Source: Cristatella mucedo (taxonomy: Eukaryota; Bryozoa; Phylactolaemata; Cristatellidae). Taken from it: a stretch of 64,000 nt of DNA. The stretch spans positions 7,627,501 through 7,691,500 of the forward strand of contig WPIO01000003.1 in NCBI GenBank assembly GCA_009760855.2, in the 5' to 3' direction. The notes below the pieces were generated by a model. That model was not told the DNA's origin. It saw only the letters and a list, made by a program, of their open reading frames with translations, and did not search any database. Shown piece by piece: positions 23,801-49,890 of the stretch; within the stretch, counting starts at the first letter, position 1, and the number at the start of each line of letters is the position of its first letter. Both the position numbers and the translations under genes were made by a program.

Positions 23801-26204
23801 TCGGGTTCTTTATGGACAATAAATTGGCTGTTCCATTCCTCTTAAAGACCGTTGGCGACAGAAGCTTTAGCTCGACAGGTTCTAGACTGTGGAACTTGCT
23901 TCTACAATTCTTACGCAACGACAACTACTCTCCTGCTGCCGACTATGGCTATTCCTTTTCTGTGGTCCTGTGCTGCTACTTCCATGCTACTCACTACCTC
24001 CAACTACTTTCCTGACTCTGTTATGCTTCCCACTTTCTCATTGTTTGCATGAGATTAAGTCTGTTGGCTACCGAATGAGTATGAAAGCTGCTTAGGCCGT
24101 GAGCGAGCTATAAATCTCTCCTGGGTAATACCCAAATAGTCTTTGTGGCTTTGTGGAATTACAGATGGAGATACATCACATTACATTACATTAGCTAGGC
24201 CATGATGTTGGGGTAACCTTCAACAAGCCCATTGTACATGCAGTATGGTCAGTTATTATTACACGGCATTCATTATGTCCGTTTTCTAGTGGCCGGCATG
24301 AGTGCATTCAAAACCCCAGCTTGATTTGGTGAGTCAGGCTGGTGCTGCCTTCTCTGGTGCAAAAGCATCAACGCATATAAGTGTCAGCCTCTACTCTAAG
24401 AGATATAACGACTTCACGCTGTCTATCCTGTATGCAAGGAGCCGACCTAACGCTCCTCCTGCACAGTCACAACAGAGTGGTGGCATAACGGTATACTGGC
24501 ATGAGCCAAAATTAGGCACCAAGTACAATGGCCACCTGGACACATTGAAAACACCACATTACACTATGCTCTAAAGTGGCTCTACAACTTAATGAACAGT
24601 TTCAGAGGCTGTCTCGAGGACAGACACAAAACCAGCATGAAGCAGCCTTGCTAACTTAGTTCCTCACCTGATCTGAGGGCTTGTGCTTCGTGTGTCTACA
24701 AAAATAGTTATAAGAAAAATGGCAGGAACTCAGCCTATAGGCTACCGGCAAACAACACCTGCATAAAGAACTGCAGGCCCATGACAAAAACACTGCTGGA
24801 AGTTAAGATTAATATGCTCACACGACAGCATCTCACTGACTTTTCTAACTGCACGTGTCACTGCCTTACTGTGACTTACTTTTACTTAAAGGACAAAAAA
24901 GTCTGCAACAAGGTTTACGACCACGCAGCCCGAAAGGTGAGCCAAGCTGACAGCTATATCAGCAGCACCCCTGCCGCCCTGCCACATTGCCAGCAACCCG
25001 AAATAAGGGGGAGGGAACTGCAGCCCTCATTATGCCTCTGCATTGGGGGGGGGTAATCACAATCTGAGTAATGGAGCCATTTTTCTAAAAATGAACATAC
25101 AGCTCAGGAGTGAGACTGACTGTCTTCGCTTCAGGAGACTCAAAAATACAACCTGAAGCACCTAAAAAAAAGTGTCAACATCGATAATCTAGCTGCACAC
25201 AATTAGGGCAGGTCGCCCAATTTTGCACCAGCAACACATATATCTTTGCCACAAAATCGGTTCAGATTGAAGCATAGTATCATTCGGCTTTACTCTTTAC
25301 TAACAGAGAGATCAGCACAGGTTTTTACTGGTCCTGATTTGCAACCAGAATAGATGTGACAACTAACTTTGTGTTTCAACCCCTTGTAATCTTGGACAGC
25401 CCTACAGGCACATCGGGTGGTGCTTCTCTGAACTGGATACTCCAGCTGACTTCAGTTGACCCAAACATGACCTCAGTGCCAAGCCACATTCCCGACAATT
25501 CCAACAACTCTCCAACTACTGAAACCGGTGCACACATTTGCCGCACTCATTCGGCGATATGCTGCACCGAACCTTTATCAAGCTCTGAGCACAGGCATCG
25601 GGATGATCGCATAACAGATTTTAAGGAAATGTGCCGGAGTAGACGACAAGAACTACTAGAAAACCCGATTAAATATCACTGCTAATCGCAAAAGGATAGA
25701 TTAATGAACAGCTACCGCTGAAAAACAGCAAAAACATAGTGGCGACAAACCGCCAACAGATGTGGACTACTTACTGCTAGTGAGAGTTGACAACAGCACA
25801 GCTCCACTTAGGTAATACCGCACTCTCACTTCAGCAAGCTAGACGCTCAAAGACGATAAAACTGCCGTACTTACGAGCTGGGGATTGTTAGCGTTAGTTG
25901 GCACCACGGTGAGATCGATGACGGTAGCTTCGTCGTCTGTCAGGTCGATGCACGCAGAGCTCTGATAGCTATCGTCAACGACGATGGGCTCGTCACCGGC
26001 CGCGGCACCGCCCTCGGCACTAGCCTGACCTTGTGCTGCCGATACAGGTCCCTCGGCGCTAGCGCTGACGACTTCTTCCTCAGTCGATGCAACCGCCGCA
26101 GGGTCGTTGACAATGGGATGTGACACTTCAGTAAGGCCGGCCTGCATGGCCTCTCGATTTCGCCTTTGCCAATACAGAGGCACTCGATTGGGGCCCGTAC
26201 TCAT
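17556..26204 (-). CDS. RNF4: RNF4-like SUMO-targeted RING E3 ubiquitin ligase, complete (exons 26204-25875, 21293-21205, 17847-17556)
   Basis: RNF4 binds poly-SUMO chains and ubiquitylates the modified proteins in the nucleus, with roles in proteasomal turnover and DNA repair. The three exons total 711 nt and give 236 residues (human 190). The SUMO-interaction motifs lie in exon 1: IVVDD (74-78), CIDLTD (85-90) and VIDLTV (95-100). The RING is in exon 3: C178-x2-C181, C200-G-H202-x2-C205-x2-C208 and C219-P-V-C222. The protein ends KSIHPLFI, like the RNF4 end YHPIYI, where the C-terminal aromatic supports dimerisation and E2 activation. Junction phases are 0 and 2. The chosen ATG has the context gccacaATGag. 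A Met further upstream at 26375 is in frame but follows non-conserved sequence. Intron 2 holds a Tc1-like relic and intron 1 holds LINE and SINE copies. Confidence 0.92.
19041..20548 (-). mobile_element. Tc1-like DNA transposon relic in RNF4 intron 2
   Basis: The ends carry a decayed terminal inverted repeat: aaaaagttttgttcc near 19046 against the complement of ggaacaagacttttga near 20529. The broken transposase runs on the - strand. About 20091-19786 gives a helix-turn-helix part (RKITRQGDFHLK, then TGVVRSTDTVHRRLARRGI). About 19800-19330 gives the catalytic part: FLDEKTRF (first D), SVMLWCCF, QQDHDTRHTAK (second D) and SPDLNYTDHLWNRLE (third acidic region, altered from PDLNPIEHLW). Several frame breaks make it inactive. 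Confidence 0.82.
21205..21293 (-). CDS. RNF4: RNF4-like exon 2 (basic and acidic linker)
   Basis: The acceptor gctgtgcag and donor ccac|gtaagt bound 89 nt. It reads RMSSRKIPRNAALP then VDSDEDVEV, resembling the RRRPRRNARRLP and acidic SSDDEE part of vertebrate RNF4. It ends in phase 2 and fits exon 3. Confidence 0.82.
21330..21490 (+). mobile_element. L2-like LINE, 3' UTR fragment
   Basis: Contains ccctaacaatgttattttt, gaaaatgtaaagtgcctac and gagttctctaagggtgctat, the 3' end shared with the copies at 11080 and 42745. It sits just upstream of RNF4 exon 2, within intron 1. Confidence 0.82.
22200..22331 (+). mobile_element. SINE-A, L2-tailed tRNA-derived SINE
   Basis: A tRNA-like head (tggtccagcagttaaggt A-box region, then gtgggctcgagcac B-box region) is joined to catatgtgaagcgcctgaat and ttctcttggggtgctataca, the 3' tail of the L2-like LINE. 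Confidence 0.85.
22421..22745 (-). mobile_element. L2-like LINE, 3' fragment in reverse orientation
   Basis: It starts with the reversed tail (aataataataataatgcac), then the reversed conserved 3' end and 3' UTR (cataggttaggggtgacatg-type sequence), running into the reversed coding end near 22745. Confidence 0.85.
22785..24195 (+). mobile_element. Second LINE family, longest copy in the window, (ACATT)n tail
   Basis: Frame-broken reverse transcriptase: about 22860-22940 reads ALALLDLSVAFDTIDHDVLL, the conserved RT block with the AFDT(I)DH motif. The C-terminal part at 23497-24015 has [20 protein letters not shown] and LRWLPIDKRIQSKVLTLTHK. The 3' end is gagatacatcacattacattacatt. It is an L2/CR1-type element, distinct from the first family in sequence and tail. 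Confidence 0.85.
23497..24015 (+). pseudogene. LINE reverse transcriptase, C-terminal fragment (second family)
   Basis: A 172-codon frame with [31 protein letters not shown] and VGDRSFSSTGSRLWN. The upstream half of the RT is in other frames. Confidence 0.8.
24200..25868. other. Non-coding: RNF4 intron 1, proximal part
   Basis: Short open frames (for example 25356-25685 on the + strand) have no recognised motif. No further exon is needed, because RNF4 exons 1 and 2 join in phase. Confidence 0.5.
25875..26204 (-). CDS. RNF4: RNF4-like exon 1 (SUMO-interaction motifs)
   Basis: 110 codons from MSTGPNRVPL to NNPQL, followed by the donor gtaagt. It is acidic and alanine-rich with three hydrophobic SUMO-interaction motifs. 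Confidence 0.9.
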
Positions 26205-27590
26205 TGTGGCCAATATCGTCGGTAGCTGATAATAAAAAAAAACACGAGGTTCGACTGCCGTCAGAAGCGAACTTGAGCGCAGCAGCTCAACGTGAACTCG
26301 GTGCGCACACAAACGAACTGACATGCACAAATCGTAAAACGCAAGCTTAGGATACGGCTCTAGAAAGGTACCCACTACGACGCAGTGTTATTGTTAGCAA
26401 CGACTGAAACGAATGGCTTATTTCGCGGAATTATACGGCGGGGGCCAAGAAACGCTACCTGACAGGCGACCCAAACATAAGCAACTTGGCAGCACAATGG
26501 CTATACCTGACAAACGCGGCCAAGCAGCTACTTTATTCTCGACCGCAGAACTTATACCGCGAGTTATTAAGAGAAGAGCCACAGTTCAAAATCTTTCAGT
26601 CCCGACTACACTGAAACCAATCACGTTTTACTTCCGGAAAATACCGCGGAGTAAAGAGATGACGCACGGTAAGCGAAGGCAAATTCCTCCAACACCAGAG
26701 AGGGACGTCGGCGACGAGCCAATCCCAGCGATAGCAAAGAGGATAGCAGGAATGATAAAGACTGCACTTGACTGGCGAACCTAGACGACTAGACCATTCC
26801 TTGTGGAAGTGCGGCTCTCAGCATGACAACACCGAGTCTCTAGCACTTCGACGACGGATTAGTAGCCAGCAGCACCACCACTCTGGCAGTATAGTCCGTA
26901 TTCCTTCAGTACTAAAGAGCGTAGTCACGTGGTTATGTATCGCCCCTCCTTTTCCGCAAGTGTCTCGCTTCAAAAATAACAGATGAAACCCTTGCTTTAC
27001 GCAGAAAAATACGAGGGAATGTCATGTCACTGCTAGGTTTTTCGGTTCAAAATTTAGGCTCGTGTGGTCTCTATCCGCAGAGCTACTGCACCGCGAGAGA
27101 AGCAGAAGCGAGATCGAGATGTGGGGGCACAACTTCCCAAAGTGAGGCGGTCGGCCAACTGGCAGCAGCTCAGGTGGTTAATTCCGAGCGACCGTAGAGC
27201 TCCTCCGAAACCTACACGGCCGTGGCAGTGGCTTTACATTAAACGACACATAGAAGCTTCTAGTTACTTACCGATATGCATGAGTACAGTTGAAGTGCAT
27301 TGAAATGTAGGCCCTTCAAAATCGAACCGAGATAGCGATTACCACCATACTTCGCTACATGCCTTCACCTGCGTTTGTTGTAATAATTGATATTAATAAC
27401 TAAACATTCGTATAGCGTCCTAAGAGAGGTAAATTAATTTCTAGACACTTGACAGCATATACTAAAAGGGAATCTTACTGTAAAGGAAGCTGGTCAATTT
27501 GTTAAGTAAGTTAGCTTGTCAATTAGCGAACTGGTACGGTGTCAGAACGCGGAAGCGCACGAAGGACAAATTGCAAGGACCCAGCAATGT
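26205..27590. other. RNF4 upstream region, no confident gene
   Basis: It should contain the RNF4 promoter, but I see no clear TATA or initiator. A + strand open frame at 26413-26784 (123 codons, basic, starting MAYFAELYGGG) matches nothing I know and may be chance. Confidence 0.4.
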
Positions 27591-31847: not shown

Positions 31848-34153
31848 CTACCTATAAATAAGGCCCTGAGCAGCATAGTGCTGCGCTGCAGCTGGATACA
31901 AATCGACGATGCCGTCTGCGCTGCCGCCGTGCTGCTGCGCCGGCAGGCCGAGGCCGTGCTGCTGCACGATCTCCATGGTGGGATCCGTCGGCGGGGGTGC
32001 GGCAGTGGCGGCGCCTAGCACCTTCATAGCCTCCATGTAATCGCTCGTGGCTGAGCCAGCACAGGAGCCGTCTGCCTGTACTGCCTGTACTGCTGCCCCG
32101 CAAGTGGAGAAGTGCGCCGAGTTCGAAGCGTCGGCAGTCCCGGCAGCAGGCTGCAGTGGACGCAAGATGCAGCCGCCGCTGCCGCCGCCCTCGTCTTGGC
32201 CGACGGTCTGCTGCAGGGCGGCACCGGCGCAGTCCAGTATCACGGCACCGCCAGAGTTGCGGCCACACGGGGCCGACAGCAACGTGGCTGCTGTCATGCT
32301 CACCATCGCTGCGGATGACCTGTAGCGACCTTGGCCGTCTCCAGTGGCAACCATGGCCGCAGGGGCAGCGGTGGTGAAAAGCACTGGCTGCCACGTGGTG
32401 GGCAGCTGAGGGTCCATGCCACTGCTGCCGCCGGCAGTGCCTGTGTCCGGCCTGTCCTTGCCACGATCGATGGTGCTCCCCGAATGCACAGGTAAGCCTA
32501 CCTGGGCGGCGGCAGCAGCAGCTGCAGACATGCCAAAGCCGTTGAACAGAAAATACTGCTGGTGCTGGCCGCCTGGCGACATGGCGCCGGGAAAAACTGA
32601 AATGGAAACATATTCCGGTGGAGCGTGAGCGGGTCTGTCGACTGCGACGAGCTCGCCAGTGGTGGCAGCGGCCTCGACCCTGCCGCCGGGCTGCGCTTCG
32701 CCGCCGTGCAGCACCGGCAAGTGCTGATGATCCAGCGAGCCTGCCGCAGACGTGGCGGCCGCCGAGGAGCTCCGCGCTCGCACCAGACTGCGTGCGCCGA
32801 CCGCCGAAGGCGCCGCGGCCATCAGTATACCGCCGTTGTCGTCGCCGGCAGGCGACTTGGCTCCTACCGCCAATGCGGCGTCTGCAGCTGCCGCCGGCGT
32901 GGCTGTGGGGCAGTGGTTCTTTTTGAGGTGGCGCGTCAGATGATCCTGGCGCCCGAAGCGCTGCAAGCAGAGCGGGCACAGGTAGTTCTTCTCCTTCGTG
33001 TGCGTCACCTGGTGCCGCCGGACGTCCTTCTGCGTGAAGAAGCGCTTGTCGCACTCGCCGCAGCAGAACTTCTTCTCCGTGGCGCCGCGGACCGAGCGCG
33101 AGCCGGCGTGCGCCTTGACATGACCGACCAGCGCCTCGCGGCTGTCGAACTCCTTCAGGCATACGGAGCAGGCCAGCTCGCCGGCGAGCGCCCGGTGGTA
33201 GGCGACGTGCGCTCGGTAGGCGTGCAGCGTCGAGTACGACTTGCGGCAGTAGCTGCACACGTGCAGGCTTCGGTTGTCGTCGTGCAGCACCAGGTGGTTC
33301 TTCAGGTGGTCGCGCCGGCTGAACGGCTTGTCGCAGAAGCGGCAGCGGTAGCGCTTCTGCGGCTGGTGTATCAGCTCGTGCCGCATCAGCTTGAACTTGG
33401 AGCTGAAGCCCTTGCCGCAGCCCGCCTGGCCGCACCGGAAGGGCCGCTCGCCCGTGTGCGCGTAGCCGTGCGCCAGCAGCTTGCCTCGCGTGGCGAACTC
33501 GAGCGCACAGTGCTGGCACCTAAGAGGAGCGCGCGGAGCCGGTGCAGCGCCTGCACCTGGGGCGGCGGTGTGCGCAGCACGTCCTCTGCTGGCCGCTGAC
33601 GACACAGCGATGCAGGCCTGTGCGGCGACAGCGGCCACCGCCGCTGCCGTGCCTCCGGCAGCGGCGGTGGCCGCCGCCTCAGCTGCCGCAGCTGCGGCGG
33701 CGGCCACCGCCGCCGCAGCTCCCTTGCGACGCTTGCGGCCGCCGACCGTCATCACCTTCTTGGGTCGCCCTTTGCGCTTGTTCCGCGTCCGGCGGCCGCC
33801 GTCCCCAGCGGTGTCGCCGCTGCCACAGGCGCCGAACTCGCCTGCTAGTGCTGCTGCTGCTGCTTCGCTAATGCTGCCCGACTGTGTGCGGTCGCAGGGG
33901 TGCAGCTCCAGCTGACGGCTCGTGCTGAAGGCCAGCTCGCACGCATCGCAGGGCCAGCACGCCGCGCCGCCCGGCTGCCGATCGAGCGAGCACGCGGCGA
34001 CGGCTGGCAGCGGCCTTTGGTGGCGAAAAGAGCGCAGGCCGGCCTTGGTTCGTCCAGTGGGCGTCGGATCTGCAGCAGCAGCAGCAAAGATGGCGGCAGG
34101 CTTGCTCAGCAGTCGAGGCTGCACGGGAGCGGGCCGTAAGGGTGCAAGAACAG
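31848..34153 (-). CDS. PLAG1: PR-PLAG gene exon 5 (zinc fingers and C-terminus)
   Basis: The acceptor cgtcacttttcag opens a 768-codon frame that has no ATG before the basic patch, so it cannot be a first exon. It encodes the degenerate finger [11 protein letters not shown], poly-Ala, the seven PLAG-like fingers, and a low-complexity tail ending GLIYR. Confidence 0.93.
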
Positions 34154-34217
34154 CTGAAAAGTGACGGCTGGTGACTGCTTGCCGAAGAAAGCGTCGGCGA
34201 CTGCAAGCGAGCGGAAC

Positions 34218-34250
<33 letters not shown>

Positions 34251-37200
34251 TCACTTGATAAAGCGCCCTCAGAGAACTTAATCTCTCTCTAGGCGCTTTA
34301 CATTTGCTGTAAAGTGAAATGCAATTGAATGGTAAGTAAAATCATGCTTGAAAAAACAAACGTTGCTGAAGAACGCCTCGGCAGAGACTTGTGGATGAGC
34401 GCGGAAACTGCTAATCGCAGTGGCCGGCGCGCGGCATTCACACACATCGACGGCTGGCCAACGAGCGACGACCAAGGAGCAGTGCTCCGAACGTTTGACC
34501 CAGATGCCACCCGATACTACAGGGCTAAATGTAAGCGAACGAAGAGTGCAATGGATGAACAACAACTTCAAAAAATATTAGCTGATTTAACAGCTTCATT
34601 TTATGGCAGCAGACGAGCCTTATCGGCTATCACCACCACTTGCATTGGGTAATAAAGGATCGCCTTGTGCAGGATTCGAACCCACGACCTCGGTCGTGAG
34701 GAGCCTTACCTCCTGGGCTACCATGGCCCAAAAAGGCTGCACAGAAGCAACGGCGAGGCGCTCGTCATTTCCCGAGTGCCCATGTCACACAATCCGTGAA
34801 CGAGCATCTAAGGGATTTTGATGCAAGCGATATAAGGAGGGAAAAGAAAAAAATGGCAGGGAAGAGCAAGCGAATGCCAAGAGAGAAAAAGAGAGAACTG
34901 GAATGCAACCGAGGCAATCGGCAACCGAGCCTGATCGATCGGTTCAGCAAAGTGGTCAGCAACTATTCTTGCGGTATGCACAATGGCAACAGGCAAAGTG
35001 GATGTTGAACGGTCGGAGCAAGCCAGCTTCCCAGCCCTCACCGAGAGCACCCACACACGTCCAATATACGGCGCAAATGGGCCACCACCTAGACTCGAGG
35101 TGAGATTGTCAATTGAACTGTTAGCCTCACCTGGCACAGAGTAAGCAATTATTCGTAAGGCACTACACTACATTCTTACTTCTGCCTCCGAGACTATAGT
35201 GGAACGTACGGTGCCGGCAAAGCAAAGCACACTTGATGTGATGGACGATGATGTTTGAGCATATTTTGACAGCAACTGACGTTGGGTCAGACTCGTGCGT
35301 TTAGAATTCAGGTCACGAGGACCGATGCAGGACTAGGAATAGACTGGTCTGAAGCCTTTCGATCAGGCTTCAAAAAACTTCTTAAGAAGGCGTGATCACC
35401 TTTTGCTCTTTGCCCACTGACACCAGTGCCACATTGGGATCCTGCTTGGTCCCCAATCATACTAAACTACGGACCAAGTAGCTTTCAGTTATTCTACGAT
35501 TCCGGCACAGTCTAGGTCGGAAATGGCAGGTCAAGACGAACAGCAGTAAAATACTCTGCTGCTACGTCATACACTACTTGCTGCTTGAGCTGACCGACAG
35601 CCCTTCTTGTTATACATCTGTCCACCACGTTCGGCTATCCTCATGTTGCCACTAGGATGCACAAGTCAGCTTCGATTTCAAACCACATTTCGAAGCATGG
35701 TACACTGCTCTGGCGAAAAAAGCTTGACCTTCGATCCTGATCGATGGGGAAAAGTGTGCCGTCCTAGACATACTTCTTAGGAGCCCCCTTGATTCGGCTT
35801 CCCTGTGCACAGTTCAAGTTTGGCCACCCCTCAAGGTAATGCATTGCATCCCGGAGCAGGCTGTAAGGAAAGATAACCAAAAAGGAGAGCTGTTTCATGG
35901 CCTAAGCATTCCAAGTTATATCATTGTATATTTTCATGAGCTATGATGAGAGTTGCTACTCATTTGACGAATCCCGAAAACGATCTCAACAATAGAGCCT
36001 GCACAATGAGGCTAATAATAAGGTGAATGAGTAAAGAAAACCAGCAGTAGTAAAAACTAAGTTGAATTTATAAGGGAGGGAATAAATGAACAAGTGAGGT
36101 ACATTTTCTGTTGTGGTGCTTTGTTCCTTCGGATCGGCCCCGACTCAATAAAGGAGCCTAGCTAGATCCAGTGTAGATGGCTTTCTCGATAAGAGGCAAG
36201 AACACGTGCTCAAGCAAAGGTTGCAAAAATCTCAACTACTGGCTAGCAGGAGCCAATGGCAAATTGGAACCTGTGCCTGGTTTTTAAACGTCACCATGGT
36301 ATGAATGATTGTCACTTCTGATCTCAAGGGTTGCTGGCATCTCGACTAGTAAAAAAAGCAGCAGTCCTTTGCACACATTTTGACGGTGCCTCATTGACTG
36401 CTTGGTCTCTTGGCATGATTTTGCATGCGATTTCCTACTGGTATCCGGATGCAATGGAAAACCCAAGTATATATCAAATTAAATTTAATATCGCGGAGCT
36501 GGTTTGGCCCACTGGTTAAGGTGCTCGCCCCGATCAAGGTCTGGCCGAGGTCGTGGGCTCGAGCCCCGTGGCATATGTGAAGCGCCTTAATAGAGGTTGA
36601 GTTCTCTTAGGATGCTATACAAATTAACTATATTTATATTTATTACTGCTTTTCGGTTTCCGTTGAAAGAACACCGAACCACAAACTGACCGTAATAAAC
36701 AGTCCATATATTTTTTCAATGCCTACATGGAAAACAACCAACTTAGCAGTCGTGAATTTTGCAATCTATTGGTGCTAAGCTGCATGAAATGTGACGGCAA
36801 ATGGCAAGTCCAGATCTGCATCTACCATTAAACTAAAACTCGTGCATAAGGACAACACTCTAATGTACTGCCAATTGTTATCGCAATCAGCTTCTGCAGC
36901 AGGCACGCTTAGTATCTTTCAAACTTGCAATGTTCTGTATAACAACTACACGCATACATGCTCAGAAATAACGAAAAGCTTCGCACTTCGGGACGTGATT
37001 TTGCTTGCAGAGATAACTTATTCATAATTTCTTTTATTAATAATTATGAGCTTCTAAAGCATCCGAGAGTAACCCATATCATCAACGCTATGGAAGGCAA
37101 AGTTTCGAACTCCTATATCCTGATCAATTCGCATATGTGAATGTGCATTCGGCAGGCGACAAAGACTGCTATCTGTAGCAACGAGCAGCCCACTGCCTGT

Positions 37201-40200
37201 GGACTTAGCTGAGTCATAGTAGTTCTGTCACGGAAGACAACGCTGTGCAATCTTGCTGCGTGACAGAAGTGAGCCATCTGGTCGCTTGATGAAGGCAAGG
37301 ACAGACTTTCTCACTAAAGTAATGATAACACATTTGATGCAGGAAAAGGCTAGTCCTTCGGTGAAGCTTGCGATGCTGTTCATGTGGTTCAAGGCTTGAA
37401 ATCTAAACGCCGGATGCTTTCGCCAACTTTTAGAATTGGATTTCGAGCTATCTCACAAATAGCGCACAGAAAAAGTGCATGGCCCTCTACTTAGTGGGCA
37501 GTGTCTTTGGTGATGGTAAAGCCGACAAAGACCAAGCCTGGCCTCATAAAGCTAAGTTTTACATGGCTGTTTGGCAATCCTTATTCGTACACATGTAACC
37601 CATTAAAAGGACAGCAACTGACTCACTTGGCTTTTTCAAAGCCAACAGCCAGCAATACTTGGCATATAGAGTACAACACGTTCGTTTACATTTTAGCAGC
37701 TGGTTTGAGCTACGCTGGATTTACCAAAAATAGTAAGCTACAGCTACCCCATGGAAAAGTCGACCTGGTATAAAAAAAAACTACGGCAGCCAACAGGAAT
37801 ATACATAGGTAGGCCATATACTCAATTTCCAGGTGAGGTCTTGGAATGCACCCTGATTTTCTGTATGCTTTTACAAAAAAGCAGGGACAGCCTAAAAAAA
37901 CCGCAAAAGGCGTCTTCTCATATGCTGTCACTTACTACAGGGCTAAGAGAACCCAGCCAATTGTCTGGAAATATAGGTTCCTGCAGAGACAAATAATTAG
38001 GAACTTGCTCCATTCATACCATATAGGACGACACTCACTTTCCTTGGTCAAGAGGCTACCAGAGCCATTCAGAGTGGCCACATGTTTGCATTTTGCTTCA
38101 AGTGGTACCAAGCCGGCAGAGAGCAAGGCTTCTGAAATTCTCGAAACAATTTGCTCAGCAGCACAGCCGAGCAGAGATAATATCTTTAATATCTTGATAT
38201 TATATTATTATCATTATTATTACATAAGTATTGAAAGAGGGATATGCCGGTCAAGAATAGCCAAAGATATTCTGGCAGCCAGCATTCTGCATTAAAAAGT
38301 AAATCATCACAGCTTAAAACTGTCGAGAAATATTGTATGCTTAATTACATCCCTGATTGGATATCACGAACTAATTTCACATGTTTCCATAAAGCAGCAA
38401 AGTAAAAGCTGCCCGGCTGGCACAAGTCCACTTGCATTTTAATGTTGGGTATGCTTAGCTTTGCCTCTATCTTGCTATCGTGCCGAGTGGGGTGCTCTAT
38501 ATTTTCTGTGACGGTAGCAAAGCTGAACTTCCCACCTAGGAGCTGAGGCTATATATAGCCAGCAGATGTGTTCACAACAAGCCGCCGAGGTTCAACAGCA
38601 TTGATACACATATAGTAGGATTCCCACCGGCACGAGCTAGCGATCACAAGCCTGCTTGCTGGCCCTTGAGGCAAAGACAGGCTGCTCATAAAAAATGTGC
38701 ACTATCCCGTCGTCATCGAAGCTAAAATGCATATCTTGCAAGATCTAACCGAGCACAGGTGGTGGCAATGTGTGGCAAAAGCTTACTTTTTGTAGGATTA
38801 AGGTAATTACAAGGTAGAATCAAGCCGAGAAGAGTATCATGGGCTTGTAGTAACAGCAAGGAACGAGAGCCAAGTACTATTGGCCGACTAGGACTTTACT
38901 ACGAAGGGGTGACACAGGTGTTTTTCGAATATCCACAGTGGCTGGGCAGGCCTCACGAAACACGGCCTTTGCAGTGATCAGGTCATTACATTGCTCTACC
39001 TTGATGGAGGAGGAGGAGGAGGACTAAGCTCTAGATGATACAACATATAGCTCCAAAAGTTGCCAGACCATGCATCTGCTCTGCCGCATCACCAGTGCCA
39101 TCGTACGCACTTGTGCAATCTGCAAGCGCAGGCTCGAGCAGGCATCTCGGAAGCGACTTCCGCACCCGAGTCATTCTATTTTTGCCACTTTCGGGCACCA
39201 CGGCCATAGCTAAAATAAGGCAAACTGGTTCGCAGGCTACGGAAATGGCTACGAAAGGACCGATCCCGATTCGCTTAGCTCATCCGGTCAGTTCGTGCAC
39301 AGGGCATCAGAACATGCTCAGGGGTCTCCCTTTCACTCTTGCCATCTAGCGGCTGCTGCTTGCTCATGCGAATGTAAGGCAACTCACCGGAATTCCGTTG
39401 CTGCTGCTGCCTGCTAACGACAGCAGCAGCAGCCTCTGGCAGCGCTGCATTGCCGCCGGTAGAAGTAAGCATTCGGCAGGGCTGGGCTGCACCGTGGTCT
39501 GGCATTGCAGCATCAGCAGGAGCTCCGGTAAGCAAGGCCTTGCCAATAAGGCGGGCATAGTCTCTTGCGTACCAGAACTTTAATTCGGAGCCAGGGTGTA
39601 TGACCTAAAAGAGCCATAGAAGTAAGCTACCAGGCAGGCGCTAAGACTAATGAGCGGGCAGGGCAATGTAAGCGCTGCTGTCTCCTTCAGCAGTGCAATT
39701 AACCGGCCGATCGACCAATGAAGCAAAGCGAGACAGCGAGCGAATGAATGAGAGCAAGAGCCGCCTTCAAGGTACTCCATTTAGAATGTAGCACAAATTA
39801 CACACTACATCTCTCTCCTTCTGCGGCTGCTACTGCTTCGGATGTCAACGGATTTAGTAAAAAAAAAAAGGCTGCACGCACCCCAAGCACGGCAAATGTA
39901 CTTTCACTGTCTGGCTATGCTACAGAAGCGAATGCAAGCTAAGCCCAGGCACTGGAAGAGGAGCGTTGGCTACAACCGCCACGCTTGAAGTAAACTGCTT
40001 CGGGTATGGGCAGAAGCAAGACGATGAGCCGGCTTGCCAACTGCCACTCCGGTTGATCACGTGCAGGCCGGACGGTCAATGCCACGGCAATCGCCAACTG
40101 GGAAATAATAATAAGGTCAAGGGGGCATAACGACTTCTGTTTCACACTTGCCAATCTCCAGCATGGAGCTGAACGAGCAGTGCCACCTGAAACAAATAGT

Positions 40201-42440
40201 CATGTCATAACTAAGGCAACCGAGGCAGCACCCATAGCCGGCCTCATATAGCAGCATCGAACAAATTGAGCCACCAGGTGGCTGGCGCTTGCTGTGCTTT
40301 CCCCACGACCCTTCTACTCCTCGTCCTCCTCGCAACGACACGCCTCTCGATGGTCTTGCAAGTTTATCAAGGGCCGACGGCATCATCGAAGGCAATCGGT
40401 CAAACGATGGCCCCATGCCAACAGATGAATGGCCCACGATGCACATGAACTGTGACCAAAAAGTCGTAGCACAATTCGGTGAAGGAGGGAGGTTGTGTGA
40501 CATGTTCAGGCCACTGCATGCACACAAGCTGCTGCAGCTTTGCATTAACTAGTGTAATGTAATGTATCTCTGTCTGTAATTCCACAAAGCCCCAAGGACC
40601 AAGTGGATCTTGGGCTGGAGAGTTTTCTATAGAGCACTCAAAACTTAAGCGGCTTTCGGTGCCACTAGGGTCTTGAGTGCACTAAATGCAGCTTGCTAGC
40701 AACGAGCTGTCGAATCTTTCACCAGGAGCTTACTGAAAGTACACGGAAGGAAAATGGGTGTTCCACATGCAAAGTGTCCACAGCCCAGAGCATACAGGCT
40801 GATATGCTTGGGTTTTGGCAATTTCAAGCAGAACGGTTTACAAAGTGTGGCAGTTCAGACTGAAGATAGTCTTCCAGCTACTTGCCAGGTTGGGTTACTG
40901 GCAATGCGCATAAGAGAAGATGGCTAGCCAATACATAGCCACCTCTAACTTACTATTCCATGGCAAAATGCTGCTGCAAACTGGGATACTATGGCAAGAA
41001 ATTTCTGAACAGGCACTTCTCGGGAACGCTAAGCTGCCATTGAGAAATTTACCTTCGGCATGGCCTGGGAGCCAAAAATCACTGCTGGTATCCTGGGTGG
41101 AATGAATGGCAGTAGCAGCAACTCACGGGCTGGCTAGAAGCTCAATTGAAAAAGGCAGACTGCACCGGACGAACGCGACTTAAGACGGTCTACCGATATA
41201 GAAGCAGCAGCGGCGGCAAAAGTACAGGCAGCAGTAGCCAGGAGAAGACAAAAATGCTAGGACCACCAGCTAAGCAGACTCGAGGCAGATAAAGGAAATT
41301 TTATGAGGATTGTGGCAGCTGTCCTGAAAGAGTTTGCAGAGTATTTCCGTGAGCCCGTGACAGGCTTTGCGGGTGGGTGGGTGGGCGGGTGGGGCGCAAA
41401 GCAGATGGCTTGCTATCATACAGCTAGTGCTGCCAGGACAATCTTGACCACACGATTGTGGAATGTTGTTGCTGAACGCTTAAGAACAAAAACTGGCAAC
41501 TACCAGTACCCAAACAGTGAGCAGCAGCGTTGCAGTACCCGAGAGACAGCATGCAGTAGATGCCGTTATCGGTCACGTGAGTTTGCATGTGACTTCATGA
41601 CTCATGGTCCAACTCTCCCAGCCAACTTGCTGAGACAGCTGCCAATCTTTTTCCCCAGTCGAGTGCCATGGAAGAGAGACCAGCGGTAAGAAGTTTTTCG
41701 GGCTATCTCTGTGTATTCTTACTTATGGCTGGGTGCTAGCTTAGGTGTAGCCAACGGCTACCCAGCCATAAGTAAGAATACACAAGTAAGAATAAGAATA
41801 CATAAGCACGAATACACAAGTAAGAACGGCTACGATGCTCATGATCTGGGATCTATGTAACAACATTGGCCAGGGGTAGATGCTAACACATTAATGCTAA
41901 AAGGGTCAGAGACATGCTGAATCGATCCGGTAGCATTGCCGGCGCTTCCGGTGGGCTCCTTAATTGACCAAAGAGCAATTGCAGGCATGCAGTGCATGAG
42001 TGAGAAAGCTGCTACAAAACTGACCGTAGCGTACACCTTGAGAAAGTGCACTCAGGCAGAAGACTGCCAGCAAATGCATGCTGATTCGCTGGTCCTCACC
42101 TGACTAGCGGTCATGTAAATGCCACCATTATGCTGGTAGGCAACCAGGTTCTGCTCATTAGCATTAGCTGCGGGCCTCACAAACATCATCCAGTTGCAAG
42201 TCCCTTCATTCTGATTGTTCAAAAACTTGTAGGTTCCATCAGCACAATTAAATATCTGAAGAGTCAATCGAAGAAACCACTGATTGCTTCATGGTGAGAG
42301 ATACATTGTGAGGCAAGCAAGGGAGCACACCTAAACAACTCGAGCCCCCACAACGCTTGAGTACAGCATCAGCAAATAATGGGGCATATAATTATATAAT
42401 GTCTTGAGAATAGATAAAAGCAAAGTGCAGGCTATCCAGA

Positions 42441-42471
<31 letters not shown>

Positions 42472-45400
42472 GGCGGGTCGGTAGATAATGCGTTTCAGTA
42501 AACAGCAGCACTCTGAGGATGCAGCTTTAGACAAGTAGGCTAAACAACTTCTCAAGGTGTTCCACCGTTTGCCAGTAGAACATAAGACAGAATACTAAAC
42601 CGGAATACTTGCGTTCGTAAGATAAGCAAGACAAGAGCCCTCTATGCATTCTCGATATCCCTAAGGGAAAGATATAGTCAGGTAAGGGCTTGCAGGCTAT
42701 TTGACCTACTAAGCTTCCCTTGACAGTCATTACAAAACTAACTTACTAGTTATGGGCAAACCCAGTGTGATTCACAAATTGGAAAGGCTGACCCTCAAAA
42801 TTGGCTCTGCCTGCATATCTCCTGTCAAATCAGCTCGAAATCTAGGTGTCATATTCCAAAGCGACCTCTCGTTAGACGACCACATCAGCTCCACGGTCAA
42901 ATCTGCATATTTTCAGCTTCATAATATTGCTAAAATTCGGGCTTGTTTAGATAAGGATACCACATCTAAGTTGATCCATGCATTCGTGACATCTCGTCTC
43001 GACTTCTGCAACTCACTGCTTACTGGCCTACCAGCATGTGCGATCAGGCGATTGCAGCTGGTGCAAAACTCCGCAGCTAGGCTTGTCTGTCGTGAGAGTC
43101 GCAGTTGCCACATTACTCCACTTCTCGCCGACCTGCACTGGCTACCAGTCAAGCAACGGATTGACTTTAAGGTTTTGTCGCTCACTTTTAGGTCCCTTCA
43201 TTCTATGGCTCCAGCCTATCTCTCCGACATACTCCCCCATCAGGCCAAGCATCGTACCACCCGCTTTTCGGAATCCAACAGTCTAGAAATACCTCGTACA
43301 AACCTCAAATCCTTTGGAGACCGTGTATTTAGTTCGTATGCTCCCAAAGCCTGGAACTCCCTCCCGACCTGCGCCAGAACATCCACTGACCTGACCACAT
43401 TTAAAAGGAACTTAAAAACACACCTATTTAGGACAGCATTTAGTGGGTCCCTGTGATTCGTCCTTGATGTGCTTATGCGTGCTGACACTGTGCATGCTGC
43501 CACTAACCACATTTGCATGCTGACCCTGTGCATGTCACCCCTAACCATGTTATTCGTTGTGTTTGTTTTTCAAGCATGATTTTACTTACCATTTAATTGC
43601 ATTTCCCTTTGCAGCAAATGTAAAGCGCCTAGAAATAGATTAAGTTCTCTGAGGGTATCAAGTACATTATTATTATTATTATTATTAGGTTTCAAGGCTT
43701 CCACTTTGCAGGATTCGTTGCCTCTTCAAGACCTATTCCTTGCTGGATACATTGTAAAGTGTGGCTGAAGCTGCCTTTTAAAAGTACAGAGAAAATTGGC
43801 TTTGATCGGCGATCAGCGCCTAACACTTTGTGCCTTTGTCCACCCCGTGACAATTCAGTGGCTACTCTACCTTATGCTTAGGTCATGTTTTCATGTGCAA
43901 CGTGGCTATGGGCATGCTTTTCTTGTGCAGTTCGATGCAAAAACCAATCAAAGTCAGCTGATTAAACAACTTCATTTACCTTGTTGCAGAAGAACCTAAA
44001 TAACAACAACAAAAATAATAAGGCATTTGCATAGCACGCAAGAGAGCTAAATCTCTCGATGGCACTGGAATGGAAGCATGCCAATAGATTTGCTATAATA
44101 TGCACGGTGTCAGCCCCCAAAAGAAAGCAAAGGACAATTCACACGGACCCCGAAAATATCGTGAAAAACAGGTGGGAGTTTTGGCTTCTTTTTTGAAAGT
44201 CGCCAAATCAGGGGATGTCGTGAAGTCAGTCGGGAGTGAAAGCCAGGCTTTAGGCTATAGGAAGGCAGGCCGATGCATGCTGCCGGCTTGCTGCGACACT
44301 GCAGCCGAGATGCACAGTGGGGCAGTATATTTGCTTGTGCACAGCATCGAGTCCGAGTTAGCAGTCGAGGCTCACTGCGCAAGCTTTTTTAAAGGAAAAA
44401 CGCAGCTTCAGCAGCTCGGCTCTGCCAATTTAAACAGCACCTTGGCACGGCCGAGAGGGTGGGGCAGCGTGAACCAACAACCGACAGCGCTGAGGTCTCT
44501 CAGCTCTCGCCAGCCCGCTCGGCTGAGTCGGCTGCTCTGTCTGAACACGAGCTGCCAGTCAGCATTTCCCTATTCTGAGATATTTTATCTTAGCAAGTTC
44601 TTGGTAACCAGTGCTCGCTCACCTTCTTCACACAGCTTCATTTAGAGCAGATGTATAATTTCGCCCAAAGCACTTCCTAATGAGACAATAACGAGCAGCC
44701 GTGCATCTCTTAAGAAAAAAAGTCAAAATTCTAGTGCCGAGTTTATCTGCCGTTCGCAAAGTATTAGAGAAACAGCTCTGCAAACTTTTCAATAACTGTT
44801 TTGGCAGGCAAAGCACGCACACAGCCGTGCTTAGCCTGATGCTTCATGTCGGGGGGGGGGGGAGAAGGGGGATGCCTAAAAGCAGCGTGCCGGAGGCTGT
44901 GACAGCGATCGTTCCCTCCTCGTAAATAATGATGGCCTTGCATGGCTTGCATGTCCGCAAGCATTTTCAGGCCATTGACTGCTGCTTCGGCAGCTGATGT
45001 TTTGTGGTGCCACTGTGGCCACTGTGAGCCTACATTGACATCTACTAGCTGAGCCTACATCGACATCTACTACCCCTAGCAACGGGCAGAGTGGTCTGTC
45101 ATACGCTACTGACGAATGCAGTTGAGCTATTAGATGGCATAGCGGCACTCGCCTTCACAATAAAGTTACTGCATGCCGATTTTTTGCAGGCTATCAAAGT
45201 TAGTTAGGTACGTACTTCTTAAAGGGTGCTTATAGAGTCTGCTGGACTTGTACTGTGCACCAAAATGGCCACAGAAAACTGACGATGCACAAAATGCAAA
45301 GGACTAAGAGAACTATAAAGTCACAGAAGACAATTAAAACTGCAATAGCAATTGCCAATCTAGTATACATGAGTGTGAGGAGTCCTGTAGGCAGAATGCC

Positions 45401-48400
45401 TGTTCAGACAGAAATGTGTTGTCGCTTGACTAGTCCAGGCAGCATATGAATAATCTGGTACCTGATCGATGCAACAATTAATGTATCACTAAGGAATTAA
45501 TAAAAATAATAATAACACACTTGATAAAGTGCCCTCAGAGAACTCAATTTCATTCTAGGCACTTTACATTTGCTGCAAAGGAAACACGGTCGGATGGTTA
45601 GTGGTATCAAGCTCGATAAACAACAAGAATAAACATGGTTAGGGGTGACATGCACAGGGTCAGCATGCAAGTGTGGTTAGTGGCAGCATGCACAGTGTCA
45701 GCACGCACAAGCACATAAAGGTCGAATCACAGGGACCCACTAAATGCTGTCATAAATAGGTGTTTTTAATTTCTTTTTATATGAGGTCAAGTCAGGGGAT
45801 GTCTTTTTAAATGTGGTCAGGTCGGGAATGAGTTCCAGGCTTTGGGAGCATACGAGCGAAAGGCACGGTCTCCAAAGGATTTGAGATTTGGACGAGGTAT
45901 GGGTAAACAGCTATATTCCGAAAAGCAGGTGGTATGATGCTTAGCCTGATGGGGAGTTGATCTGATAGCTAGGCTGGAGCCAAAGAATGAAGGGACCTGA
46001 AAGTGAGTGATAGAACCTTGAAGTCGATGCATTAATTGACTGTGAGCCAGTGCAGGTCAGGTGATGTGATGTGGCAACTGCGATGCTTACGACAGACAAG
46101 CCTAGTAGCAGAGTTTTGGACCGCCTGTAAGTGCCTGATTGCAGAGACCGGTAGACCGGCAAGCAGTGAGTTATAGAAGCCAGACGGGATGTCATAAATG
46201 CATGGACCAACTTAGAGGTGGTATCCCTGTCAAAACAAGCCCGAATTTTAGCAATATTGTGTAGCTGAAAGTAGGCTGACTTGATTGTGGAGCTGATGTG
46301 GTCGTCTTTGAACGGAAGGTCACTTTGGAACATGGCACACAGATTTCGTGCAGATTCAACAGGAGATGCTGGCAGAACCGATTTTGAGCGTTAGCCTTTC
46401 CATTTCCGAATCACACTTGGTTTTCCCATAACTAGTAAGTTGGTTTTTTCATCATTCAATTTAAGAAAATTTGGTGCCATCCATGTGGGGAATTGTCAGC
46501 TGCTCGAGAAAGGCAAAAGTAGTGATAAACAATGCCGCCTGCAAAGCATACCATCATTGCTGCCGTTATTACTGCTGCCAACGGCCCTACTAAGTTCTTG
46601 CTCGCTTGAATGTATTTACACAAACACACTCGTGTAAATACAAGTAGCTACATATGCATAATTCTTTACTTACTTGGAGGCAGGAGGCACTTACAAGTAA
46701 TAATAATTTCGTATAGAACCCTCACAGAAGCTGCATCTCTTTCTAGGCAATTTGCATATGTTGTAGAAGAAGCACAGAATATACTTTCGTGTAAATACAA
46801 TATCTAATCTGCAATATCTAGTCCGAACGTGATCGCAGCTGGTCCACTTGCTTCAGCAATGAAAAGTAAGTTCCTTGTGCTATTATATCACCAGCAGGTA
46901 CACAAAGGCCAGGGGGCTGAGTTAATGCTACAGCACTGCTCATGGCCCTGCCGACGAATTCAGAAATGGGACAAGACTCAAGAAAGACATCGGCGGGCAC
47001 GTGGGCGATGCATAGCGGTTGCTTAGAACAGGTTGGTTCAGCTGCATTCTATAGAATCCTCCGAGCGCAAGCACCGCTCAGCAAATGAGTTGGCACGTGA
47101 TTAGCCTGGGTAGCCGCTATTATAGCCCTATTCAACAAGTGATAACTAACGAAAATGCAAAACGAAAATGTCGAGCGCTTCTTGTAGAAAAATGCTCTAA
47201 TTATGAGGTCGTCTTTTCGCCATCACTTTCAGATGGGCTTTGGAGCTCTTGCTTTTGTCGGGGTATGGCACGGCCGATACGTCTCTCCACACTCGAGTCG
47301 AGCGGTGACCCGGCTGCCAGCACGGCTAGCATCTGTTCATTGGCCTCAAGGATAGGTCACGCAAGTTGCAAGCATCAGACTAACGACAAAACACAAATAG
47401 CTGACCCATCGCATTGGCACGTGCTCGGTATACCCCTCGACTCGGTATGCCTTCGTGAGCGCTGGCGTCCACATGGCAGTGCTTCTGCATCGATGGGCAT
47501 AGCACAGTTGGGAGGGCGGAGTTGTCTCACCAGGCTGCACAGCCACGGCTTGAGAGGCATTTCATTGCCTCCGAGCCTTAGCCAAGGGAAGGGGGCAAGC
47601 TTGCTTGCACGTCACGACTCCGTGACACCTCCGGCCGTGGGTAGTCCTATGGCAGGCAATATTTTATTGCTGGCTTCTACAGCTCTATAAAAGTGGCTGT
47701 CAAATCAACCGACCTGTACTGTTTTGTGTTTTTTTTTTAATGCAGGCTGCAATGTCTGAGGGCCTCGCCGGGGAGCGAAAAAATCAAAGGCAGGAAGTAG
47801 ACGGAGAGAGAGTGTCATTCTGCTTGCTTTGATCTGCCGAATCAGGTGGGCATAGTGATTCTTACCTTTGCTTTCGAAGGTCGTGGGTTCAACTCCTGAG
47901 GACCAGAAGACCTATTCTTTCCTTCCAGTGCTATGATATGATATGAGTCTAGCATTTATAGAGTGACATAAATCACCCAAAGGTTCAGCCACCACTTTTT
48001 ATTTACTCGATTTTATTTTATTTATTTGCTGCCATGAGCTGCCGTGAGACACTTAGTGGTGACATCTTCCCCTCTACGGCCAATGCTTGAGCAGCAGCAG
48101 CGGTGGTGGCAGCAGCAGCAACAGCAAGGTCGTGCTGGTTAAGCGTGCAATACAAATCGCTGCCGTTGCCAACTGTCGATGCTCACAGCACAGAAATAAG
48201 AAACAACTAAAAAGGCCGTGATGGCCACGCACCTTGAAGTGGTAATGCTCGCAATCGGCAGCCCCTGCGGCCGCATCATCCACCAGCTCGCCCTCAGCTG
48301 GGCCGAAGTTGCTCAGCTTCTGTATCACTTTCTTGGCGAACACTCCGAAGTCGACCGGCACACTCTGCCCAGTCGCCTGCAGCTTCAGCGAGCAGGGCAG

Positions 48401-49890
48401 CGTCAGCCTGGCGTGCGACGGTATCACGCGGTCCACAACCCTGACGAGAGTGTGCAACGGGCAGACTCCTTGCACCGACCGACCGCACTCCTCGCACCCT
48501 GCGAACGTAAGTGGCACGATGCCTGGAATCACTGCAGTCAATGCACTGCAGCACTAACCATGACTCTGAAGCCCACTCGCTGTAGCAGCTGAGCAGTGGC
48601 ATCGTCAGCAGCAGCAGGTGGCAGCAGCAGTAGAGACCCAGAGAGGCAGAGAGACAGAGGCAGAGAGGCAGAGAGACAGGGAGGCAGAGAGACTGAGAGG
48701 CAGAGAGACTGAGAGGCAGAGAGACAGAGACAGAGAAACAGGGAGGCAGAGAGACTGAGAGATTGAGACTTTTTCTGCCATCTGAGCAACGTGTTCAGAA
48801 CACTGCTATTGCAACGCTAGCAGGAAGAACACCATTGCCCTGCAGGCTCCATTGCATAGCTGCAGCCATTCAATTGGTACAAGCGAAATGCTTTCACTTT
48901 CGATCTCAGACCCACCGACATGCAAACCTGGCCACGCCGTCCGTTACCATGGCAGTGGCTGGTCCAACCTTTAGATTTAGAGTTAAGGCAGGGAGGCAGA
49001 AACCGAGTCGGCAGCAGAAGCCAGAGTCGTGCACTCAGTCAGTACTCCCTCACTCAACCAGTGCTTTGCAGGCCCACCACGTGTGAACTGCCATCTCGAA
49101 GTTACACTGATAGTACCATATTTAGCTGACTGCCCTGACAGTGCTCATTAACAATAAGCTGGCCATCGTGACCAGTGCTCGGCTAGGTGGCCAGGCCCCA
49201 AGAATAAGAGAGAGAAAAGGTGAAGGTCGCCTGATTCAGCAGCCTCATTTGTATAGCGACAGAAGAGCCTCGGTAGCTATCCCCTAAAAAATTACTTGCT
49301 GATTTAACAGCTTGTTTTGTATAACGACAGAGGAGCATTTATGACTATAACCACCGCTTGCCGCGGCAATACAGGTTCACTCACAGTAGGATTCGAACCC
49401 ACGTTCTCGAGACCGAGGTCGTGGAAACCAACCGTCTCAATGGCAGTGGGCAATACAGGATTGACCCGAGTCGTGAAGCGGGAGTACCTCAGCCTTCGGC
49501 TAATCGCACCATCTCGCCAAGCATTTTATCGTGCATTTCCTTCCGTTCCTAAGATTTGGCTACGGGAGACGTGGTCATAATCATCGATCGCCTCACTTGC
49601 CGTTCGGTGACTTCGGGGCCGTCTGCGGCAGCTCCCAGAGCTGAGCACAGCGTTCTCATCGATCCCCTTGGATCCACACAGCATTCTGATCAATCTACTT
49701 TGGAGGCGACGGTATCTGCGGCACGAATTGGAGCGAAGCAAATGCTGACGTTAGGTAAAGCCTCGCTGGAGCTGCGACGATGCCGCCCCGCGAAGGCAGG
49801 AGCCGCTACTAAGGGGCCACAGCTGCAAAGTGCAGCGCGATCTTCCTCCTTACATGTGAGATCGTCGCTGAACAGCACCCGAGCAGCCAT
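31848..49890 (-). CDS. PLAG1: PR/SET-domain protein with a PLAG1-type seven-zinc-finger array (exons 49890-49854, 48498-48233, 42255-42100, 39604-39388, 34153-31848)
   Basis: Predicted nuclear DNA-binding regulator. The five exons total 2982 nt and join in one frame with phases 1, 0, 0, 1 (993 residues). Residues about 13-175 are a PR/SET domain of the PRDM4/10/15 group, with the entry motif WCEECGRS..GVCPLH, then [28 protein letters not shown] and [18 protein letters not shown] decayed finger follows (C294-x2-C297-x12-H310, second His lost), as after the PR domain of PRDM10. Then come a basic patch ([10 protein letters not shown]), poly-Ala, and seven C2H2 fingers (438-639). These match PLAG1 finger by finger, including RDHLKNH (third), KDVRRH (sixth) and [14 protein letters not shown] (seventh). 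The tail is Ala/Gly-rich. The fingers suggest binding to a GC-rich PLAG-like site. Histone methylation activity cannot be judged. CHCHD7 lies head to head, as beside human PLAG1. Confidence 0.88.
34215..34345 (-). mobile_element. L2-like LINE 3' end, reverse orientation
   Basis: A long aat repeat tail, then attcacttgataaagcgccc and taggcgctttacatttgctg, the reverse of the family 3' end. It lies about 60 bp from the acceptor of exon 5. Confidence 0.88.
34581..34740 (-). mobile_element. SINE-B copy, reverse orientation
   Basis: gctgatttaacagcttcatt, then tatcggctatcaccacca, then the reversed tRNA-like head aggattcgaacccacgacc and cctgggctaccatggccc. Confidence 0.8.
36495..36635 (+). mobile_element. 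SINE-A, best-preserved copy
   Basis: A box TGGCCCACTGG at 36505-36515 and B box GGCTCGAGCCC at 36556-36566 form the pol III promoter of a tRNA-like head. The tail catatgtgaagcgcctt then gttctcttaggatgctata matches the L2-like LINE 3' end. Confidence 0.88.
39388..39604 (-). CDS. PLAG1: PR-PLAG gene exon 4 (end of the PR domain and linker)
   Basis: The acceptor atggctcttttag is followed by [20 protein letters not shown], the final PR block (compare ELKVWYAASYAEF). An Ala/Gln-rich linker follows. The donor ccg|gtgagt leaves phase 1. Confidence 0.9.
40555..40700 (-). mobile_element. Second LINE family, 3' tip in reverse orientation
   Basis: aatgtaatgtatctctgtct, then tgtaattccacaaagcc and ctttcggtgcc, the reverse of the ACATT-tailed family end. 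It is in PR-PLAG intron 3. Confidence 0.75.
41710..41784. repeat. Perfect 25-bp inverted repeat with a 25-nt loop
   Basis: 41710-41734 is the exact reverse complement of 41760-41784. Three further short copies of aagtaagaa or aatacac motifs follow to about 41827. Confidence 0.95.
42100..42255 (-). CDS. PLAG1: PR-PLAG gene exon 3 (PR domain core)
   Basis: The acceptor gattgactcttcag and donor cag|gtgagg bound 52 codons, phase 0 at both ends. [20 protein letters not shown] and YQHNGGIY are near-identical to the PRDM10 core. Confidence 0.93.
42447..42472. repeat. (GA)n microsatellite
   Basis: A short GA run in PR-PLAG intron 2. Confidence 0.95.
42745..43690 (+). mobile_element. L2-like LINE, best-preserved copy
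   Basis: A 5'-truncated insertion in PR-PLAG intron 2. It has an intact 234-codon end of the pol frame, full 3' UTR, conserved tip (gcaaatgtaaagcgcctaga) and a tattattatt tail. Confidence 0.92.
42752..43456 (+). pseudogene. LINE reverse transcriptase, C-terminal part, frame intact
   Basis: Signatures [58 protein letters not shown] and [18 protein letters not shown]. It ends [12 protein letters not shown], the family's natural C-terminus. The catalytic half is missing. Confidence 0.88.
44005..44260 (-). mobile_element. L2-like LINE, decayed 3' fragment, reverse orientation
   Basis: Starts at aataacaacaacaaaaataa, then degraded tip, cacggtgtcag, and gggatgtcgtgaagtcagtc, the reverse of the coding end. 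Confidence 0.6.
44261..45502. other. PR-PLAG intron 2, unassigned stretch
   Basis: It includes a G/C run at about 44850 and a tandem duplication of a roughly 25-nt unit (gagcctacattgacatctac type) at about 45024-45078. No gene was seen. Confidence 0.5.
45503..46442 (-). mobile_element. L2-like LINE copy, reverse orientation
   Basis: Reverse tail at 45503, 3' UTR, then broken RT frames (46333-45941 and 46032-45817). It ends at the same internal position as the copy at 42745 (ccaagtgtgattcggaaat on the - strand), so both are truncated at nearly the same place. Confidence 0.88.
46443..48232. other. PR-PLAG intron 2, start-proximal part
   Basis: It contains a faint L2 tip (about 46690-46770, - strand) and a tRNA-like SINE remnant at about 47840-47915 (gtcgtgggttcaactcctga). 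The open frame at 47085-47690 (+) has no known motif. Confidence 0.45.
48233..48498 (-). CDS. PLAG1: PR-PLAG gene exon 2 (N-terminal half of the PR domain)
   Basis: The acceptor cttacgttcgcag and donor aag|gtgcgt bound it. It encodes [23 protein letters not shown]-like [26 protein letters not shown] and FGPAEGELV, typical of the first half of PRDM10/15 PR domains. Confidence 0.9.
48632..48768. repeat. Minisatellite, GACAGAGAGGCA-type units
   Basis: About 12-nt units (agagagacagggaggc, agagagactgagaggc variants) repeated about ten times within PR-PLAG intron 1. Confidence 0.9.
49222..49460 (-). mobile_element. SINE-B copies, reverse orientation (one truncated, one fuller)
   Basis: A truncated piece at about 49222-49285 is followed at about 49298 by gctgatttaacagcttg, then tataaccaccgcttgcc and the reversed head ggattcgaacccacg. 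Confidence 0.72.
49854..49890 (-). CDS. PLAG1: PR-PLAG gene exon 1 (start codon)
   Basis: ATG at 49890, then [12 protein letters not shown] plus one base before the donor cat|gtaagg. That base joins exon 2 to make the Trp codon of the conserved WCxxC. Confidence 0.75.

Follow-up and report, generated by a model that had tools for sequence, protein, structure and literature searches.

The PLAG family of zinc-finger proteins (PLAG1, PLAGL1 and PLAGL2) has been studied in growth, imprinting and tumours, and PLAG1 itself is a vertebrate growth-control and cancer gene. These proteins recognize the site GRGGC(N)6-8RGGK, a G-rich core plus a G cluster, and PLAG1 makes its DNA contacts through fingers 3, 6 and 7 (F3, F6 and F7). 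Vertebrate PLAG proteins begin shortly before finger 1 and are not known to contain a PR domain. In the PRDM family, C2H2 fingers follow a PR domain in the same protein, and the PRDM3/16 genes yield both PR-plus and PR-minus isoforms. We found little on the origin of the PLAG family outside vertebrates in open-access titles and listings, and among these (for long listings, their best matches) there was no description of a PR domain joined to PLAG fingers. The main text of a paper on the clam PRDM family, in which one entry is an Ml-PRDM4-like protein (881 aa, four fingers), does not mention PLAG (PMC10451705), and the word is also absent from the main text of three C2H2 surveys (PMC3701560, PMC2889900 and PMC12513265).

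Here we describe a locus of the bryozoan Cristatella mucedo in which the two kinds of domain meet. The stretch of DNA that we analysed (the window, 64 kb) spans positions 7,627,501-7,691,500 of contig C332, in a genome of 572 Mb. On its minus strand, a PR domain and a seven-finger PLAG-type array stand in that order in one open frame, and the exon that bears the PLAG fingers also holds a motif of PRDM type. We consider it very probable that one gene encodes a joined PR and PLAG-finger protein, with or without a second, PR-less product.

Five exons in one open frame

As the earlier note on this DNA had proposed, five minus-strand exons (Table 1) join into 2982 nt encoding 993 aa with a single terminal stop. 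All five are bounded by GT-AG sites; the note had also called these sites good, a description that does not fit the exon 5 acceptor at 34153: under a generic scoring scheme, one not tuned to this genome, it is of middling strength, in the top 7.9% of AGs. By the same generic scoring, an alternative acceptor at 34069, also in frame, scores above 34153 and leaves an open frame of 965 aa. The exon 4 donor at 39388 is the only GT scoring >2 within the part scanned (39500 to 39276). Exons 2-4 are linked by PR homology, whereas homology does not extend to the exon 4-5 junction, whose acceptor is not a strong one, and a phase match at this junction is by itself a 1-in-3 coincidence. We infer the splice from exon 4 to exon 5, with the open frame running from exon 4 through a W-x-C motif to the fingers.

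At the start of the model, intron 1 splits a Trp codon (T|GG), and the completed Trp opens a WCEEC...CPLH stretch. That W is the only part of exon 1 with support from homology, and the model has only 12 residues upstream of the stretch. The DNA around and upstream of exon 1 (49.5-51.0 kb) is GC- and CpG-rich. At the other end of the gene, no polyA-like hexamer occurs within 2.3 kb after the stop; the nearest lies ~3 kb downstream, and five stand between 28.9 and 26.5 kb.

One statement about exon 5 had to be revised. Exon 5 had been thought to have no usable start codon, which is wrong: an in-frame ATG at 33752 (context GTGATGA, with a purine at -3) lies upstream of all seven fingers, so a PR-less isoform is possible. 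A join between contigs within intron 4, which would have refuted the gene, was rejected as an artefact: the window has no N and its contig is 14.77 Mb long, so the PR-PLAG join is not an assembly gap.

Other elements were seen around the gene. Fragments of reverse transcriptase from a single family, which we take to be LINE-like, occur at 11082-11747 (+), 42713-43456 (+) and 45941-46390 (-), the last two within intron 2. Downstream of the gene on the minus strand, 17556-17906 and 25839-26387 encode a RING domain (CTVCLDD...CPVCRRKL) and an acidic, SIM-like segment preceded by a Met; taken together, they presumably resemble both ends of a gene for a SUMO-targeted ubiquitin ligase of RNF4 type.

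Table 1 Features of the PR-PLAG locus, in window positions, and contigs of the further PR loci of the genome
Feature	Position or contig	Strand	Description
Exon 1	49854..49890	-	ATG at 49890, 12 codons and T of split Trp codon
Exon 2	48233..48498	-	Cys/His stretch (CEEC..CPLH) and N-terminal half of PR domain (17-residue segment)
Exon 3	42100..42255	-	PR core (23-residue segment)
Exon 4	39388..39604	-	End of PR domain (12-residue segment) and linker
Exon 5	31848..34153	-	W-x-C motif of PRDM type; basic stretch (AT-hook-like); seven fingers of PLAG type; C-terminal region and stop; acceptor 34153 or 34069
W-x-C finger-like motif (19 residues)	33900..33956	-	Resembles W-x-C fingers of PRDM10-like and PRDM15-like loci; without standard second His
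Basic stretch, taken to be AT-hook/NLS-like	33756..33779	-	Read from sequence and translation
In-frame ATG	33750..33752	-	Precedes all seven fingers; possible start of PR-less isoform
Seven C2H2 fingers	32910..33524	-	In the same order as PLAG1 fingers 1-7; first cysteines at 33518, 33434, 33344, 33257, 33170, 33062, 32978
PRDM9-like locus	C653		Identical to PRDM9 at 57% of 65 residues; 8 tandem fingers in an exon
PRDM10-like locus	C685		Nearest PDB chain PRDM10 (5.4e-18)
PRDM15-like locus, by elimination	C45		PRDM10 first in PDB, PRDM4 only 7.8e-7
PRDM14 locus	C88		PDB 8.8e-48
PRDM3/16 locus	C387		PDB MECOM 1.1e-28

The finger array is of PLAG type

Human PLAG1 entered every comparison as a provisional sequence rather than a database entry. 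Against this sequence, the window's array resembles the PLAG family in having seven fingers in the same order, an unusual finger 2 with two extra residues between its cysteines and a long linker between fingers 5 and 6, and it is 51% identical to PLAG1 with one 1-residue gap. All seven window fingers have their best score with the finger of the same number in the provisional PLAG1 (7/7); in the reverse direction this holds for 5/7, a different window finger outscoring the expected one for PLAG1 F1 and F4. The true finger order is the best of 5040 permutations. The contact residues at helix positions -1, 2, 3 and 6 are identical to those of the provisional PLAG1 in F3, F6 and F7 (4/4 in each), with 6/16 agreeing in F1, F2, F4 and F5 together. 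As F3, F6 and F7 are the fingers through which PLAG1 contacts DNA, the conservation falls where function would place it. The earlier note had described seven fingers matching PLAG1 in order, spacing and helix residues; for the helix contacts, the agreement is 12/12 over F3, F6 and F7.

In a genome search with the provisional PLAG1 as query, 150 of 551 candidates were scored, this locus reaching 225 bits and the runner-up 103; with the window's own array (150 of 376 scored) the values were 471 and 91.5. Among these best candidates of the 572 Mb, no second PLAG-like array was found. No PLAG-named match was present among the best 60 of 163 PDB matches of the array. In viral contigs, the array gave 11 pattern matches, and in prokaryote genome contigs a two-row alignment gave 59, none of which was confirmed in either set. 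Outside exon 5, the finger pattern occurs in the window at +2688 (an open frame of 78 codons), +5229 (40 codons) and -9063 (39 codons); judged by eye, these do not resemble fingers and were rejected as chance matches. Elsewhere in the genome, C2H2 arrays cluster on contig C686 (about 1.08-1.40 Mb) and also on C15, C18 and C93, which suggests a lineage-specific expansion of tandem zinc-finger genes.

The PR domain and its PRDM relatives

Exons 2-4 had been read as a PR domain of the PRDM4/10/15 type, and our analyses bear this out. The domain matches Pfam PF21549 at 8.3e-31 (score 106.7, where the cut-off is 27 bits) and SET at 6.1e-6. All 15 PDB matches at E<=0.01 are PRDM proteins, MECOM counted in, the best being PRDM4 (5.6e-23), PRDM10 (3.3e-21) and PRDM9 (1.5e-20), with no PRDM15 chain among the matches listed. 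In PRDM9 (4c1q), the Cys/His stretch before the domain aligns at the equivalent position. In a phylogeny of PR domains, an analysis that the earlier note had proposed, this domain joins PRDM4, PRDM10 and the C685 and C45 loci (94/88) rather than PRDM3/5/9/12/14; the tree has 13 rows, leaves out PRDM1, 2, 11 and 16 and includes two rows that cover half of the domain. Within the five-row group, PRDM4 lies outside a fork (93/92) that holds this domain, PRDM10, the PRDM10-like C685 and the PRDM15-like C45. We therefore dropped an outright naming as PRDM4, which is the best PDB match but not the nearest in the tree. It is plausible that the domain is PRDM4 by elimination, because separate PRDM10-like and PRDM15-like genes exist in the genome.

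A search with this PR domain led to further places in the genome on C45, C685 and C653 (8 of 8 candidates scored), and it brought up no PR domain closer to this one. The Pfam PR model recovered five further loci (12 of 12 candidates scored), whose identities in Table 1 were read from their nearest PDB chains and their fingers. The PRDM9-like gene (C653:5556001-5586000) has its eight fingers, very similar to one another and of THTGEKPY type, in an invertebrate genome. The PRDM10-like gene (C685:134001-164000) has a 746-codon open frame with nine pattern fingers, a W-x-C finger standing first. The latter interval also includes 2500 N, which means that some of the 'contigs' in this genome are scaffolds.

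The genome includes a mitochondrial contig (C688; 21,008 bases, of which 17,000 were read) with eight recognised protein genes on one strand. COX1 was identified by Pfam and contains 11 in-frame TGA codons; its frame breaks under the vertebrate code, in which AGR is a stop, and is open under codes 4, 5, 9 and 13. The remaining genes, on the same strand as COX1, are those we take to be ND3, ND1, ND6, CYTB, ND4L, ND4 and ND5. The code indicates a non-chordate animal, and the gene order tentatively suggests a lophotrochozoan.

A PRDM-type motif inside the finger exon

Independent evidence for a single gene comes from the W-x-C motif, which stands before the PLAG fingers in the same exon and the same frame. 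Among 186 distinct fingers, only three have a Trp two residues before the first Cys, and all three are in the C685 and C45 loci. A looser form of the pattern was matched six times in 668,606 six-frame residues (overlapping loci counted), and as two matches (in L009 and L048) repeat the window's own, these amount to four distinct places: one in exon 5, one in C685 and two in C45. These counts gauge the rarity of the motif only roughly, as the screen mainly covered DNA selected around genes for fingers or PR domains, and the motif itself has no standard second His. Aligned with the three W-x-C fingers, the exon 5 segment scored 48, 52 and 52, and 0 of 2000 shuffles reached each score. The motif is shared with the PRDM10-like and PRDM15-like loci, so exon 5 bears a mark of PR genes together with PLAG fingers. 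In the C685 locus likewise, the W-x-C finger precedes the array in one open frame.

The locus resembles PRDM4, PRDM10 and PRDM15 in the order of its Cys/His stretch, PR domain and W-x-C motif, and resembles the PRDM10-like gene of its own genome in having the array in the same open frame as the motif, but differs from them in that the DNA-binding array is of PLAG type and not of PRDM4 or PRDM10 type. From the PLAG family it differs in carrying a PR domain and a W-x-C motif upstream of the array: where PLAG proteins start just before finger 1, here PR exons lie upstream in frame, although ATG 33752 could give a PR-less product. That C2H2 fingers follow PR in the same protein, as in the PRDM family, is suggested by the shared frame, the compatible GT-AG sites and the W-x-C motif.

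One gene or two

The locus might instead comprise two neighbours on the same strand, a PR-only gene made of exons 1-4 and an unseen end, followed by a stand-alone PLAG gene beginning at ATG 33752. The position of this ATG would let exon 5 stand alone, the CpG observed/expected ratio of 1.17 at 34.0-34.5 kb would permit a promoter, and the minus strand of intron 4 contains five polyA-like hexamers (2 AATAAA and 3 ATTAAA), though their number is close to the 4.2 expected from the strand average. We nevertheless think this arrangement improbable. Since the window offers no other credible finger, a PR gene on its own would be fingerless here; the PRDM-type W-x-C motif would fall, in frame, in the 5' untranslated part of the PLAG gene; and the reading frame stays open from exon 4 to the fingers, motif included.

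A single locus could also use two promoters: the upstream one would yield a PLAG protein with the PR domain, and a second one near exon 5 a PLAG protein without it. This reading overlaps that of a joined gene and does not exclude it. The in-frame ATG and the CpG-rich stretch are consistent with it, and the PRDM3/16 genes (MECOM and PRDM16) are a model of one locus with both kinds of product, although in this genome PRDM3/16 is a separate gene (C387) with other fingers. The CpG signal, however, is weak because the coding sequence of exon 5 is rich in GC and CpG anyway, and we hold a second promoter to be possible but tentative. A joined PR-PLAG gene remains the reading that we prefer. The earlier note had placed PR and PLAG in one gene, and this now draws on evidence beyond that of the note, namely the W-x-C motif, the lack of credible fingers elsewhere in the window and the failure to find, among the best genome candidates scored, a second PLAG-like array or a closer PR domain; the exon 4-5 splice is a predicted one.

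Origin of the join

How a PR domain came to precede PLAG fingers can be explained in two ways. A lineage-specific fusion or shuffle may have set a PLAG array behind a PRDM4-type PR domain, replacing the fingers that the domain had before, or the joined form may be ancestral, with the vertebrate PLAG genes descending from a PRDM4/10/15-type gene that lost its PR domain. The genome searches bear on both. No clear PRDM4-type array was found elsewhere in the genome: a provisional human PRDM4 array scored best at 127.7 bits, then 121.4 and 121.0 with a long tail, and the array of this gene, which is not of the six-finger PRDM4 type, scored 75.8 bits, behind many other arrays of the genome. The want of a stand-out PRDM4-type array can be counted for either account. 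That PR genes in general arose when a PR domain became attached to arrays of fingers speaks for a fusion; that no donor PLAG copy was found speaks against it, since a fusion would then have consumed the only copy. The ancestral account gains from the same result, no other PLAG-like array having been found among the best candidates scored, and from the finding that no other PR domain of the genome is nearer to this one.

Shared ancestry of the PRDM4 and PLAG arrays themselves found no support in a finger-order permutation test: 30% of permutations of PLAG1 against PRDM4 do as well as the true order (both sequences provisional), a negative result that counts against an ancestral join. For the window's array against the provisional PRDM4 the figure was 2.5% of permutations, and 1 of 10 control arrays reached 0.3% (nine distinct arrays, L006 and L013 being the same; the first seven fingers of each were used). 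One genome, moreover, is unable to date the join. We weakly favour a fusion or shuffle, which seems somewhat more probable than an ancestral join, and regard descent of the vertebrate PLAG genes from a PR-losing gene as doubtful. The fuller proposal, that the joined form is the ancestral one of animals and that the PLAG family (PLAG1, PLAGL1/ZAC and PLAGL2) is a PRDM branch without PR, perhaps by way of a PR-less isoform such as that from ATG 33752, is in our view unlikely.

A predicted PR-PLAG transcription factor

The product of the gene would be a transcription factor of about 965-993 residues, with an N-terminal PR/SET domain of the PRDM4/10/15 group followed by a W-x-C finger in degenerate form, a basic stretch resembling an AT-hook and a complete seven-finger array of PLAG type. 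F3, F6 and F7, with contacts identical to those of the provisional PLAG1, are predicted to bind a PLAG1-type site (G-rich core plus G cluster), at which the PR domain may serve as a docking module for chromatin or co-factors. A second product starting at ATG 33752 would be PR-less and PLAG1-like, comparable to the isoforms of PRDM3/16.

A gene that couples a PR domain to a whole PLAG array would connect two cancer-related gene families that have been treated as unrelated, and would predict a direct coupling of PLAG-type sites to the co-factors of PR domains. The gene also supplies sequence with which to ask whether PR or PLAG came first.
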